Shown here one piece after another: positions 1 through 61,931 of a stretch of 64,000 nucleotides of DNA (positions are counted from its first letter, which is position 1; each line of letters starts with the position of its first letter). A program made the translations under genes and the position numbers. The notes beneath the pieces are model-generated. The model saw only the letters and a program-made list of their open reading frames with translations. It was not told the DNA's origin and ran no database searches. Source of the stretch: Herbaspirillum hiltneri N3 (GTDB taxonomy: Bacteria; Pseudomonadota; Gammaproteobacteria; Burkholderiales; Burkholderiaceae_D); the NCBI RefSeq assembly GCF_001267925.1, contig NZ_CP011409.1, forward strand, positions 4,898,001 through 4,962,000. Direction: 5' to 3'.

Positions 1-157
1 CGTTCATGTCGGCGAGCGCCAGGCCGCAGCCCTGCGCCGCCCATTGCGCGCCCTTGGCGGCGTCGCGCACGACCGCGCGCACGCCCTTGTGCCGCGCCAG
101 CAGCTGGCGCGCAACGACGCCGCCGACCTGGCCTGTGATTCCGGTAATTGCGTACAT
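1..157 (-). CDS. NAD(P)-binding, NmrA-like protein (N-terminal part only)
   Basis: The gene runs off the left edge, so only about 52 N-terminal residues are visible. They begin MYAITGITGQVGG, a Rossmann GxTGxxG nucleotide-binding loop, followed by a basic stretch (RAVVRD) that usually contacts the NADP phosphate. This matches the start of NmrA-like / atypical SDR proteins, which act as quinone or NAD(P)H-sensing reductases. The ATG at 157 has a good Shine-Dalgarno (GGAG) 6 bases upstream. Function beyond NAD(P) binding cannot be judged from the fragment. Confidence 0.75.
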   Translation of the reverse strand, partial: MYAITGITGQVGGVVARQLLARHKGVRAVVRDAAKGAQWAAQGCGLALADMN

Positions 158-364
158 GGTTTTCTCCGTTGATGAGGTGTTCGATTGACGGAGTGGATTG
201 TGGCGCTTCAATGCCTTCTTTAAAACAGCATCAATGTCATTTCATCCATGACATGGATGCATGAATCACCACACACGTCGCCACGCACGTTGCCACGAGC
301 GCCGGAATTTACCCTACACTCATCCCAAAGCAAGCTCCGCACAACAACAACGGGGAGAGCGGCC

Positions 365-8268: not shown

Positions 8269-9024
8269 TCACACCAGGCCGCCGTTGGCGCGCAGCGTCT
8301 GGCCGTTGACCCAGCCGTCCGGCGCCGCCAGGAAGGTCACTGCGCGGGCGATGTCGTCGGGTGTGCCGAGGCGTTCCAGCGGCGCCATCCTGGCCAGGCG
8401 TTCGATGGCTTCCGGTGTCTTGCCGTCGAAGAACAAGGCGGTCGCGGTGGGTCCCGGCGCGACGGCGTTGACGGCGATCCGCTTGCCGCGCAGTTCCTTG
8501 GCGAAGATATTGGTCATCGCTTCGATTGCCGCCTTGGCGGCGACATAGACCGAGTAGCCGGGCAATCTGGTGCCGGTCAGGCTGCTCGAGAAGTTGACGA
8601 TGCGACCGCCCTGCTGCAGGTGGACGGCGGCGGCGCGCATGGTGTTGAAGCTGCCCTTCAGGTTGACCGCCACCAGGCGGTCGAAGGTGGCGTCGTCGGT
8701 ATCGGCCAGCATCGGCAGATGGGGCGGCATGATGCCGGCATTGTTGATCAGTACGTCGACGCGGCCGAAGGCGGCGATGGTTTGTTCGAACAGCGCGTTG
8801 ACGGCGCCGGAGTCGGCGACGTCGGCCTGGACGGCGATGGCTTTGCCCTGGCCGGCGACGATGGCGTCGACCACGTTTTGTGCTTCGGTAGCGTTGCCGG
8901 CGTAGTTGACGACGACGGCGTAGCCTTTCTTGCCGAGTTGTCTGGCGATTTCAGCGCCGATGCCGCGCGAGGCGCCGGTGACGATGGCGACTTGTGGCGC
9001 CGGGGTGGTGTGGGCGTGGTTCAT
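8269..9024 (-). CDS. SDR family oxidoreductase (FabG-like)
   Basis: Short-chain dehydrogenase of 251 residues with TGASRGIG, NNAG, a Ser in FSSSLTG and YVAAK, and the C-terminal NGQTLRANGG that places it near FabG / 3-oxoacyl reductase-like enzymes. A clear GGAG precedes the ATG. It is the first gene of a two-SDR unit reading away from the LysR gene at 9193. NADP preference is suggested by the Arg after TGAS; the substrate is not evident. Confidence 0.87.
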   Translation of the reverse strand: MNHAHTTPAPQVAIVTGASRGIGAEIARQLGKKGYAVVVNYAGNATEAQNVVDAIVAGQGKAIAVQADVADSGAVNALFEQTIAAFGRVDVLINNAGIMPPHLPMLADTDDATFDRLVAVNLKGSFNTMRAAAVHLQQGGRIVNFSSSLTGTRLPGYSVYVAAKAAIEAMTNIFAKELRGKRIAVNAVAPGPTATALFFDGKTPEAIERLARMAPLERLGTPDDIARAVTFLAAPDGWVNGQTLRANGGLV

Positions 9025-9192
9025 GGTGTGCTCCTGATAGCTGGTGAATGAAGAAAATGAGAAAGCAAGTTCGTTTGCCGTGTGGGCCCTGATTCGTGAG
9101 CCAGTGAAGCGATTGTGGACCTTGGCTTGAATTGGATAAATATGCTTAAATTGCTATTACTATTCAAAAATCACCAACAATGAAGGCAGCCG

Positions 9193-41426: not shown

Positions 41427-41442
41427 TGTTTCACGTGAAACA
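41427..41442. other. parS: parS site 1 (perfect consensus)
   Basis: TGTTTCACGTGAAACA, an exact match to the 16-base bacterial parS consensus, in the gap upstream of mnmG. ParB (gene at 35663) should nucleate here. Confidence 0.95.
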
Positions 41443-41529: not shown

Positions 41530-41561
41530 CCGGCGATTGTTCCACGTGAAACAATCGCCGG
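41530..41561. other. parS: parS site 2 inside a 32-base palindrome
   Basis: The core at 41538-41553 is TGTTCCACGTGAAACA, one base from consensus. Flanking bases extend the symmetry to a 32-base palindrome (arms CCGGCGATTGTT and AACAATCGCCGG) with one mismatch. It lies 111 bases from site 1 and 15 bases past the stop of the TauE gene, so it may also work as a transcription end for that gene. Confidence 0.88.
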
Positions 41562-58265: not shown

Positions 58266-59783
58266 TTATTTCGCCACCGGCATCGTAAATTCCGCGCCCT
58301 TGCCGATAGTAGCCGACCAGCGCTGCATAATGGACTTATATCGCGTATAGAACTTGATGCCCTCTTCGCCATAAGCATGCGTATCGCCGAACAGCGAACG
58401 CTTCCAGCCGCCGAACGAATGCCAGGCCATCGGCACCGGAATCGGCACGTTGATGCCGACCATGCCGACCTGGATGCGGCGCGAGAACTCATGCGCCGTG
58501 TTGCCGTCGGCGGTGAACAGCGACACGCCGTTGCCGTACTCATGTGCATTGATCAGCCGCACCGCTTCGGCGAAATCGGGCACGCGCACCACGCACAGCA
58601 CCGGTCCGAAAATTTCTTCCTTGTAGATCTTCATGTCCGGCGTGACGTGGTCGAACAAGGTGCCGCCGACGTAGAAGCCGTTTTCATGACCCGGCACCTT
58701 GATGCCGCGGCCGTCGACCAGCAGCTTGGCGCCGGCGTTGACGCCGTCGTCGATGTAGCCTTCCACCTTAGCCTTGTGCGCCGCAGTGACCAGCGGGCCC
58801 ATTTCGGCGTCGGCTTCCATGCCGTTCTTGATCTTCAGGGCTTTCACGCGCGGAATCAGCGCTTCTACCAGCTTGTCGGCCACGCTGCCGACTGCCACCG
58901 CCACCGAAATCGCCATGCAGCGTTCGCCGGCCGAACCGTAGGCCGCACCGATCAGCGCATCGACCGCCTGCTCCAGGTTGGCGTCGGGCATCACCACCAG
59001 GTGATTCTTGGCGCCGCCCAGCGCTTGCGCACGCAACGGGAAAGTGCCGGCGCGCTTGGTCGCCTCGCTGTAAATGTATTCCGCAATCGGCGTCGAGCCG
59101 ACGAAGGAAATCGCCTGCACCTCCGGATGCTGCAGCAGCGCATCGACCGCCACCTTGTCGCCCTGGACCACATTGAACACGCCATCCGGCAAACCGGCGC
59201 GCTTGAACAGGTCGGCCAGCATCAGCGACGGCGTCGGATCGCGCTCGGACGGCTTGAGGATGAAGCTGTTGCCGGTAGCGATCGCCATCGGCGCCATCCA
59301 CAGCGGCACCATGACGGGGAAATTGAACGGCGTGATGCCGGCGGTGACGCCCAGCGGCTGGCGCAGATTCCAGTTGTCGATGCCGCCGCCAATGTTGTCG
59401 GTGAACTGGGTCTTCAGCAATTGCGGCACGCCGCAAGCGAACTCGACGATTTCCAGGCCGCGCGTAACTTCGCCCTTGGCATCGGAAAACACCTTGCCGT
59501 GTTCACGCGTGATCGCGGCAGCCAGATCGTCGTGATGCTGCTCGATCAGCTCCTTGAACTTGAACAGCACGCGGGCGCGCTTCAACGGCGCGGTCTCGGC
59601 CCAGCCAGGCGCAGCGGCGCTGGCGGAAGCGACCGCCGCATTGACTTCCGCTGTCGAGGCCAATACGACCTGGCCGGAGACTTCGCCGGTCGCCGGGTTG
59701 AATACGTCCTGCCGGCGTCCGCTTTCGGACGGCGCGATGCGGCCATTGATGTAATGCTGAATCGTGGATGGTGCGGCAGTCAT
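58266..59783 (-). CDS. mmsA: CoA-acylating (methyl)malonate-semialdehyde dehydrogenase
   Basis: Aldehyde dehydrogenase of 505 residues. It converts malonate or methylmalonate semialdehyde with CoA and NAD to acetyl- or propionyl-CoA and CO2. [27 protein letters not shown] and the catalytic Cys in GERCMAIS are typical of MmsA. I start at MTAAPS (59783), after AGGGAC. It is the first gene of the leftward cluster, 43 bases ahead of the GMC gene, and divergent from a LysR gene. Confidence 0.94.
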
Positions 59784-60856: not shown

Positions 60857-61275
60857 GTTTTTTATGTAGGTTTCCAGAAAGGAATTTTTCAGGTTTCCCG
60901 AAAATGAGGTGATTTGGTTTTTAAATTAATAGTTTATATATATAAATAGTAGTAGTAGTTAACACAGGCACTTTTCTGTGGATAACCGGGTAAACCTTCA
61001 TCGAATCATCGACTTGCGAAATTCATAAGTGCTTGGCAAGTCTTGTATGGCAAAAGAACAGATGTTGGAGAGAAATGCACGCTGTGCAAAACTCTTGAGC
61101 TATCCCCAATTCACACCCGAGTTATCCAAAGACTTATCCACAGATTAGCTGAAAATAGCTGTTTTTATTGGTATTTTGTTAATCAAACCAAAACAATAGA
61201 CCTGTATCCATCCAGATTCGCCTTTTCGGCATGGATGGCCTTCAATCAAGCTCCAGAGCCAAACAGATTTTTCCA
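60857..61275. other. 419-base origin-like region (module A) before the ferredoxin gene
   Basis: AT-rich non-coding stretch. It holds origin module A at 60920-61142. The short open frame from 61043 is not credible. Confidence 0.6.
60920..61142. other. oriC: Replication origin module A (AT-rich element, TAG trios, DnaA boxes)
   Basis: In order: an AT-rich stretch (60920-60946), four TAG trinucleotides (60947-60958) like the DnaA-trio that binds single-stranded DNA, 18 bases, a perfect DnaA box on the minus strand (TGTGGATAA, 60977-60985), an IHF-like site AATCATCGACTTG (61004-61016), a degenerate box CTATCCCCA (61100), TTATCCAAA (61122) and a perfect box TTATCCACA (61134-61142). The spacing of AT-rich element, trios and box follows the bacterial unwinding module. 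A second copy lies 748 bases to the right. parABS is 20 kb away, which supports a chromosomal origin. Confidence 0.78.
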
Positions 61276-61590
61276 ATGCCCATGGATGAACCAATACCCA
61301 AACATGCCTACAAGGTCTCCTTGCTGCCTTCAGGATTGGAATTTGAAGCCGGTGCGGAAAGTTCTTTGCTTCAGGCGGCTTTGCGAGCGCAAATACGTTT
61401 GCCCAGTTCTTGCCGAAATGGGACATGCCGCACTTGCCTGTGCATGTTGAAAAGCGGGGAAATCAGTTACCAGATCGACTGGCCCGGTCTGACCAGGGAA
61501 GAAAAAGCCGAAGGCTATTTGTTGCCCTGCGTGGCGGTTGCCGAATCGGACTTGGTCATTGATGCACCGGATGCTCTTTCCCTGAAATGA
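61276..61590 (+). CDS. 2Fe-2S ferredoxin-like protein
   Basis: Plant-type 2Fe-2S domain protein of about 104 residues. The cluster cysteines are in SSCRNGTCRTCLC (CX4CX2C) and in YLLPCVAV. It would carry electrons for an unidentified partner. Two in-frame ATGs (61276, 61282) and an earlier one (61231) are possible; none has a good Shine-Dalgarno. It lies exactly between the two origin modules, with no other gene in between. Confidence 0.82.
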   Translation: MPMDEPIPKHAYKVSLLPSGLEFEAGAESSLLQAALRAQIRLPSSCRNGTCRTCLCMLKSGEISYQIDWPGLTREEKAEGYLLPCVAVAESDLVIDAPDALSLK

Positions 61591-61625
61591 GCATCTTCGG
61601 CTTTTGAAGTGTTTTTCAATTTTTT

Positions 61626-61653
61626 AACCCGTTTGGAAAGAAAGCGGGTTTTC
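61626..61653 (+). terminator. Weak terminator-like hairpin after the ferredoxin gene
   Basis: AACCCG (61626-61631) pairs with CGGGTT (61645-61650), followed by TT and a C. It lies 36 bases past the ferredoxin stop and just before module B. Confidence 0.45.
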
Positions 61654-61662
61654 AGGGTTTCT

Positions 61663-61890
61663 GGTTTTTATATAAAAGTTTATATATATATAAATAGTAG
61701 TAGTAGTTAACGCAGCGCCTTTTCTGTGGATAACCCGGTAAATCGTCATTGAATCATCGACTTGCGAAATTCATAAACGCTTGGCAAGTCTTGTATGACA
61801 AAAGAACAGTTCGGGGACAGAAATCGCGCCTGTGTAAAACTCGTCAACTATCCCCAATCCGCGCAAACCTTATTCACAAAGTTATCCACA
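61663..61890. other. oriC: Replication origin module B (second copy)
   Basis: AT-rich stretch (61663-61694), four TAG trinucleotides (61695-61706), 18 bases, perfect minus-strand DnaA box TGTGGATAA (61725-61733), IHF-like AATCATCGACTTG (61752-61764), degenerate CTATCCCCA (61848), TTATTCACA (61870-61878, fits TTATNCACA) and perfect TTATCCACA (61882-61890). From the trios to the CTATCCCCA box, 163 positions align with module A without gaps, with about 25 differences by hand count (about 85% identity). It ends 42 bases from the AsmA stop. Confidence 0.78.
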
Positions 61891-61931
61891 GGATGACGTT
61901 CTGATAAGAATTCGTATTGCCAAACGACAAT

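Follow-up and report, generated by a model that had tools for sequence, protein, structure and literature searches.

Bacterial replication origins have been reported to contain, as a general feature, a reverse DnaA box of the R1 type proximal to the DUE, together with an opposite distal box (PMC5043019). Chromosomes that carry more than one origin have been described as well. The putative double origins listed by Gao (2015) include a pair in Acidaminococcus fermentans that lies close together and goes with two dnaA genes, and others that are 150, 291 and 882 kb apart (PMC4403523), and a natural single-chromosome strain of Vibrio cholerae has been reported to contain two functional origins (PMC10225481). 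The published search for the basal unwinding system (BUS) asked for at least three DnaA-trios, situated at most 16 bp from a DnaA box (PMC8287927). Computed double origins and a two-origin strain are thus already in print; a conserved tandem of homologous units was not found in the passages of these papers drawn on here or in the openly licensed literature, and titles and abstract openings of that literature gave no description of repeated origins in these bacteria.

The locus described here, from Herbaspirillum hiltneri N3, consists of two direct copies of a sequence of about 200 nt. Judged from the sequence, the two copies together probably form the chromosomal replication origin (we put the probability at roughly 60%), i.e. 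a composite of two complete units in direct tandem, with the parts ordered as in oriC of Escherichia coli.

Anatomy of the two units

The window, i.e. the whole stretch of 64 kb that was analysed, covers positions 4,898,001-4,962,000 of a single contig of 4,965,474 bases. A repeat search within it recovered direct copies at 60935-61143 (unit A) and 61683-61891 (unit B), both 209 nt long, 82% identical without gaps and spaced by 748 bp. The initial annotation had given the same spacing for copies of some 210 bases that were about 85% identical over 163 positions, which is compatible with these figures. BLAST of 60915-61150 against the own genome returned the query itself and one copy (83%, E 2.2e-59); a third copy was not found in this genome, the remaining four matches being 17-25 bp long with E-values of 0.157 or worse.

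Each copy contains TGTGGATAA and TTATCCACA, together spanning 166 bp, and the annotated layout of two opposite, perfect DnaA boxes per copy was thereby recovered. The 64-kb window holds four perfect TTATCCACA boxes, all of them inside the two units (0.11 expected), a number that was reached in none of 100 shuffles of the window. From left to right, a unit is made up of: 30 AT-rich bases, TAGTAGTAGTAGTTAAC, 13 bases, the reverse box TGTGGATAA, an IHF-like site that starts 27 bases past the start of the reverse box, 117 bases, and the forward box TTATCCACA. We refer to the reverse and the forward box as R1-like and R4-like, respectively, following what we take to be the accepted nomenclature. 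In unit A, the AT-rich element, presumably the unwinding element, is found at 60917-60946 (93% A+T), directly left of four TAG triplets that resemble DnaA-trios and are followed by TTAAC (60947-60958, + strand); the R1-like box is found at 60977-60985 (- strand), the IHF-like site at 61004-61016 (+ strand) and the opposite-facing R4-like box at 61134-61142 (+ strand). The corresponding positions in unit B are 61665-61694 for the AT-rich element (97% A+T), 61695-61706 for the four triplets, again followed by TTAAC (+ strand), 61725-61733 for the R1-like box (- strand), 61752-61764 for the IHF-like site (+ strand) and 61882-61890 for the R4-like box (+ strand). A distance of 18 bp separates the last triplet from the left box in both copies. 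The IHF-like sites, scored against WATCARNNNNTTR, which we take to be the IHF consensus, have one mismatch each and an identical offset, and the genes for IHF alpha and IHF beta are both present, above cut-off. The E. coli-type order R1-IHF-R4 with opposite-facing outer boxes is therefore present, a cluster of DnaA boxes lies beside an AT-rich element in both units, as in oriC, and the initial view that both copies look like complete origin modules is supported.

Spread, conservation and history of the units

Genomes, genera and families are labelled G, g and f, where G000 is the genome of the window, g1 its genus and f1 its family, and the other g and f numbers denote other genera and families. 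Over the 34 genomes of the genus, BLAST with copy A (E 0.001) gave two matches in 25, one in five and none in four. The box-pair pattern TGTGGATAA-(131..160)-TTATCCACA was present twice in 29 of these 34 genomes, so that the second copy, the loss or poor conservation of which in close relatives had been named as evidence against the initial annotation, is retained as a perfect unit in most of the genus. The pattern was present once in G005, G017 and G030, and was not found in G007 and G022, the assemblies of which consist of about 820 and 450 contigs. Family-wide, it was recovered from 281 of 392 genomes, representing 28 of the 44 genera, and the reversed pattern, used as control, was absent among the table rows listed. 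In an order-wide draw of 220 genomes the pattern was found in 14, namely five of the seven genomes of the own family and nine of the 213 others.

The number of copies was determined with a sequence-only profile that covers the left half of a unit; it was derived from 61 units and run over 165 family genomes (E 0.01, with stricter filters for large searches; tallied by hand). The profile gave no match in 13 genomes, one in 38, two in 89, three in 24 and four in one, and hence two or more in 114 of the 165; the genome with four is G051, the fourth match of which is weak (E 0.004) and far away. At least one genome with two or more matches was found in 26 of the 44 genera, and in 17 genera this held for every genome. 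Two or three units are retained in most genomes of g1, g6, g12, g24, g28 and g32; a single match was found in g5 and g41, which have genomes of 2-3 Mb, and none to one in g7, except for one genome with two weak matches. The tandem pair, which had initially been called unusual, is thus real and complete, but it is not peculiar to its own genome and is common in the family. Profile matches and perfect box pairs were equal in number in g1 (10/10 genomes) and g6 (9/9). In g19, six of nine genomes (G088, G110, G128, G154, G175 and G185) had three profile matches and no perfect box pair, so the boxes drift in this genus; many units without a perfect box pair were found in some genera.

Outside the family, the profile gave mostly single and weaker matches: of 160 genomes of the order 61 matched (four of five of the own family and 57 of 155 others). 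Close pairs were recovered in G482 and G521 (f49), G417 and G543 (f27) and G483 (f51). Those in f49 and f27 are close direct pairs of the unwinding half (L230 in G482; L227 in G521; G417 C9:74989-75315; G543 C2:38973-39300), and the multiplication of units may therefore have occurred on more than one occasion within the order. In G580 (f31), which has a genome of 1.2 Mb, two box pairs that look identical were seen 17 kb apart (C2:41575-41740 and 58853-59018; L073 and L084).

We extracted 111 perfect units of 56 genomes from the fetched loci. The units point in the same direction in 48 of the 49 genomes that have two or more of them, the exception being G050 (about 400 contigs). Opposite-facing pairs were observed among the profile matches, with equal scores within each pair in G155 (C1:245900 and 247044) and G167 (C10:228202 and 228885), and further in G186 (C1:4043184 and 4043893) and G156 (C1:4057313 and 4060221). 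The perfect boxes of the 111 units constitute no independent evidence, because the search pattern required them. Conservation within the genus was determined for motifs not used in unit detection, on 30 sequences of copy A and 27 of copy B. The TAG triplets with GTTAAC scored 0.93 in both copies and the IHF core 0.89 in copy A and 0.90 in copy B, against a background of 0.70 in both, in line with the initial remark that motifs are conserved inside drifting copies. The respective values for 54 units of other genera were 0.89, 0.83 and 0.56. The A+T fraction of the stretch from -60 to -30 was 0.84 in copy A and 0.81 in copy B. An IHF-like site with at most one mismatch was found in 103 of the 111 units, in 101 of them at the identical offset, and in 3.4% of shuffled segments.

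The two DnaA-box regions with a gene between them follow the plan of a bipartite origin of the Helicobacter/Bacillus kind, in which one unit would open and the other would bind DnaA, form a loop with the first and regulate it. In Epsilonproteobacteria, unwinding is reported to occur in oriC2 alone, with DnaA bridging both halves (PMC5043019), and in one subclade of the own genus the left end of copy B is, by eye, less TATA-rich than that of copy A. We consider such a division of tasks unlikely, since the AT element, the triplets, the R1 box and the IHF-like site are kept equally in both copies and would be needless in a half that only binds; moreover, the halves are homologous here and do not flank dnaA. 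Both units are taken as probably able to open, because a binding-only half need not keep the unwinding side.

With respect to their history, the copies in g6 group by position (0.164 between species vs 0.446 between copies), and although they have diverged to about 0.45, all three keep the motifs. The copies of g4, g12 and g40 join the g6 position groups in the tree, and the duplication would therefore predate these genera; the unit trees rest on about 250 bases and their deep nodes are weak. In the own genus, the nearest neighbour has the same position for 54 of 57 units. The divergence between A and B within a genome amounts to 0.24-0.32 in the subclade of the window and to 0.34-0.48 in the sister subclade, and the greater likeness in the former suggests gene conversion between A and B. 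In g2, g10, g18, g24, g27, g28 and g30 the copies of one genome or genus cluster together, and independent duplication or conversion is possible there. The signs of conversion and the existence of genomes with a single unit would be compatible with a redundant duplication, where one unit is enough and the other is kept by chance and occasional gene conversion. This appears quite improbable in view of the motifs kept in the strongly diverged g6 copies, and of the expectation that direct repeats a few hundred bases apart should vanish easily, set against the two or three units kept in most genomes of g1, g6, g12, g24, g28 and g32.

Genomic surroundings, dnaA and GC skew

To the left of unit A is the end of a LysR regulator gene, and to the right of unit B that of an AsmA-family gene; between the units lies a gene for a 2Fe-2S ferredoxin of 119 aa (61231-61590, + strand). 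Neighbour families were derived from an all-against-all BLAST of the ORFs of 21 loci, some families being antisense frames. They recur across genera, although the distance to dnaA varies from 3 to 719 kb: GMC oxidoreductase (F2) in 16 genomes, LysR (F6) in 13, AsmA (F14) in 10 and an aldehyde dehydrogenase family merged with longer proteins (F0) in 20; in this comparison, none of the recurring families was found near the units of G064. The ferredoxin gene was present between the units in 25 of the 30 own-genus genomes examined, absent at the units in G017, G029, G030 and G032, and located beside the one unit on its contig in G005; at the 26 loci of other genera that were tested it was not found. 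A duplication tied to the ferredoxin gene was rejected, because G029 and G032 have two perfect units without the gene and none of these other-genus loci has it. A plasmid source was rejected as well: a blastn comparison of 60860-61930 with 72,556 plasmid records yielded two matches (69-74% identity), both beginning at query position 541, i.e. within the ferredoxin gene, and showed no sign of a plasmid origin.

The distance from the units to dnaA, which lies on their right and begins at base 10 of the contig, is 5.6 kb. A cluster of DnaA boxes was not found at dnaA: the first 6 kb of the contig contain no perfect box, and the 3.5 kb from the end of the window to the end of the contig contain a single one. 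Two small ORFs with similar ends, perhaps a duplicated small protein, were observed between the units and dnaA (L009:8145-8390 and 8872-9190). The genes mnmG and rsmG are located 20 kb to the left of the units, and just upstream of mnmG, likewise 20 kb from the units, are two perfect 16-mers (41427-41442 and 41538-41553) that we take to be parS-like (0.16 expected at two mismatches); no perfect DnaA box was found at these sites. Units and dnaA were on one contig in 18 of the 25 genomes checked, separated by 3-6 kb in g1, 48-87 kb in g15, g24 and g28, 143-147 kb in g32, 280-348 kb in g6, g12, g19 and g30, and 719 kb in g2.

The initial annotation had named a GC-skew minimum away from the units as evidence against it. 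In the own genome the minimum is elsewhere: over a contiguous 147 kb the cumulative skew is lowest at C1:58,337, past the units by 64 kb and past dnaA by 58 kb, and hence not at dnaA either. This is the main result against the reading of the units as an origin. An inversion of 64 kb as the cause was rejected, as it would flip dnaA with respect to the units, whereas both have the same orientation in g1 (G000) and g28 (G060, G236). The skew is weak throughout. In the relatives, where 20-kb stretches were sampled, the expected switch at the units was found in G034, with dnaA 719 kb off: the best single break in plain GC skew falls between the stretches that flank the units, with means of -0.0375 to the left (6 stretches) and +0.0241 from the units to dnaA (13 stretches; Mann-Whitney p 0.005). 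In G051, the best break in strand-balanced third-position skew is at 1.70-1.76 Mb, with the units at 1.854 and dnaA at 2.201, i.e. about 95-150 kb from the units and farther still from dnaA; the stretches from the units to dnaA are like those to the right of dnaA (p 0.64) and unlike those to the left of the units (p 0.02). In G270 (units at 350 kb, dnaA at 0), the best break, at 160-180 kb, misses dnaA and is 170-190 kb away from the units; the stretches that separate the units from dnaA differ from those on the right side (p 0.001). The skew in G051 and G270 thus speaks against dnaA, without pinning the units. The dnaA region as origin was rejected on the missing box cluster and the G034 break at the units. 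A further reading puts the true origin at another locus and regards the units as a site for binding or titrating DnaA, or else as promoters of the ferredoxin region under DnaA control. It would fit the displaced skew breaks of the own genome, G051 and G270 and is nonetheless very improbable, considering the G034 break, the lack of a box cluster at dnaA, the full unwinding anatomy, the nearby parS-like sites and mnmG, and the fact that all 26 other-genus loci tested have units but no ferredoxin gene.

Proposed mechanism and comparison with known systems

The best reading is a composite origin, of two units here and of three elsewhere, with both or all units under selection. We counted in its favour the recurring gene families around the units and the two perfect parS-like sites, and against it the 38 and 13 of 165 genomes with one and no profile match, the box drift in g19, the skew breaks in the own genome, G051 and G270, and the distance of the TAG triplets beyond the BUS limit. 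In such an origin, the R1-like and R4-like boxes of each unit would serve as anchors for DnaA, with IHF bending the DNA in between; starting from R1, DnaA would extend along the TAG triplets and unwind the AT-rich element. A fork from either unit would copy the other almost at once, and the locus could still give one initiation per cycle because the units are only 748 bp apart. Selection would keep the second unit, most likely for one of two reasons: either unit can open, which would make initiation more reliable, or the DnaA complexes on both units cooperate. A stronger claim can be made tentatively, with the odds somewhat against it: that members of the family naturally operate two or three adjacent origins on one chromosome, all of them complete and competent on their own, able to start a bidirectional round each and selected since before several genera split, their closeness ensuring that only one start per cycle counts.

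Two or three complete, homologous units, spaced by a few hundred bases, have been retained in much of the family, and the idea of a single start site for bacterial chromosomes is directly testable in this chromosome. The locus raises the questions whether both units start replication, how the control to one start per cycle deals with two units and what is gained from the second copy. The repeated units are natural within-cell replicates for finding out which origin motifs matter, and software built on the assumption of one oriC next to dnaA may, in these bacteria, place the origin wrongly or report only half of it.

In comparison with oriC of E. coli (NC_000913 3925500-3926300), the units share the AT-rich side, the reverse box R1, the IHF-like site and the forward box R4, as well as, in many relatives, a position apart from dnaA. 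They differ in the R1-R4 span (166 bp vs 189 bp in E. coli), in being two tandem units instead of one and in the Dam GATC sites, which are many in the E. coli type and number zero in each unit of the window (mean 0.39 over 111 units). A DnaA box beside repeated 3'-GAT-5' triplets and AT-rich DNA is shared with the BUS as described (PMC8287927). The spacer of 18 bp in both window units exceeds the published 16 bp; the triplet run lies within 16 bp of the box in 17 of the 111 units and within 18 bp in 69, and, by a rule of our own, a run within 20 bp was not found in 36. In the two-origin strain of V. cholerae, two unlike origins were reportedly joined by chromosome fusion, and it differs from a tandem repeat kept across a family. 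The regions listed by Gao (2015) have in common with our locus that there is more than one origin-like region per chromosome; the text mentions no Oxalobacteraceae and describes no tandem of homologous units that is conserved (PMC4403523). The bipartite origins of Helicobacter pylori, Bacillus subtilis and the Epsilonproteobacteria share two DnaA-box regions that are split by a gene. They are described as flanking dnaA and opening in one half only (PMC5043019). Here, by contrast, both halves carry the complete unwinding anatomy and are homologous repeats in direct orientation; dnaA is located on one side only, at a distance of 5.6 kb, and the halves are separated by a ferredoxin gene or by no gene at all.
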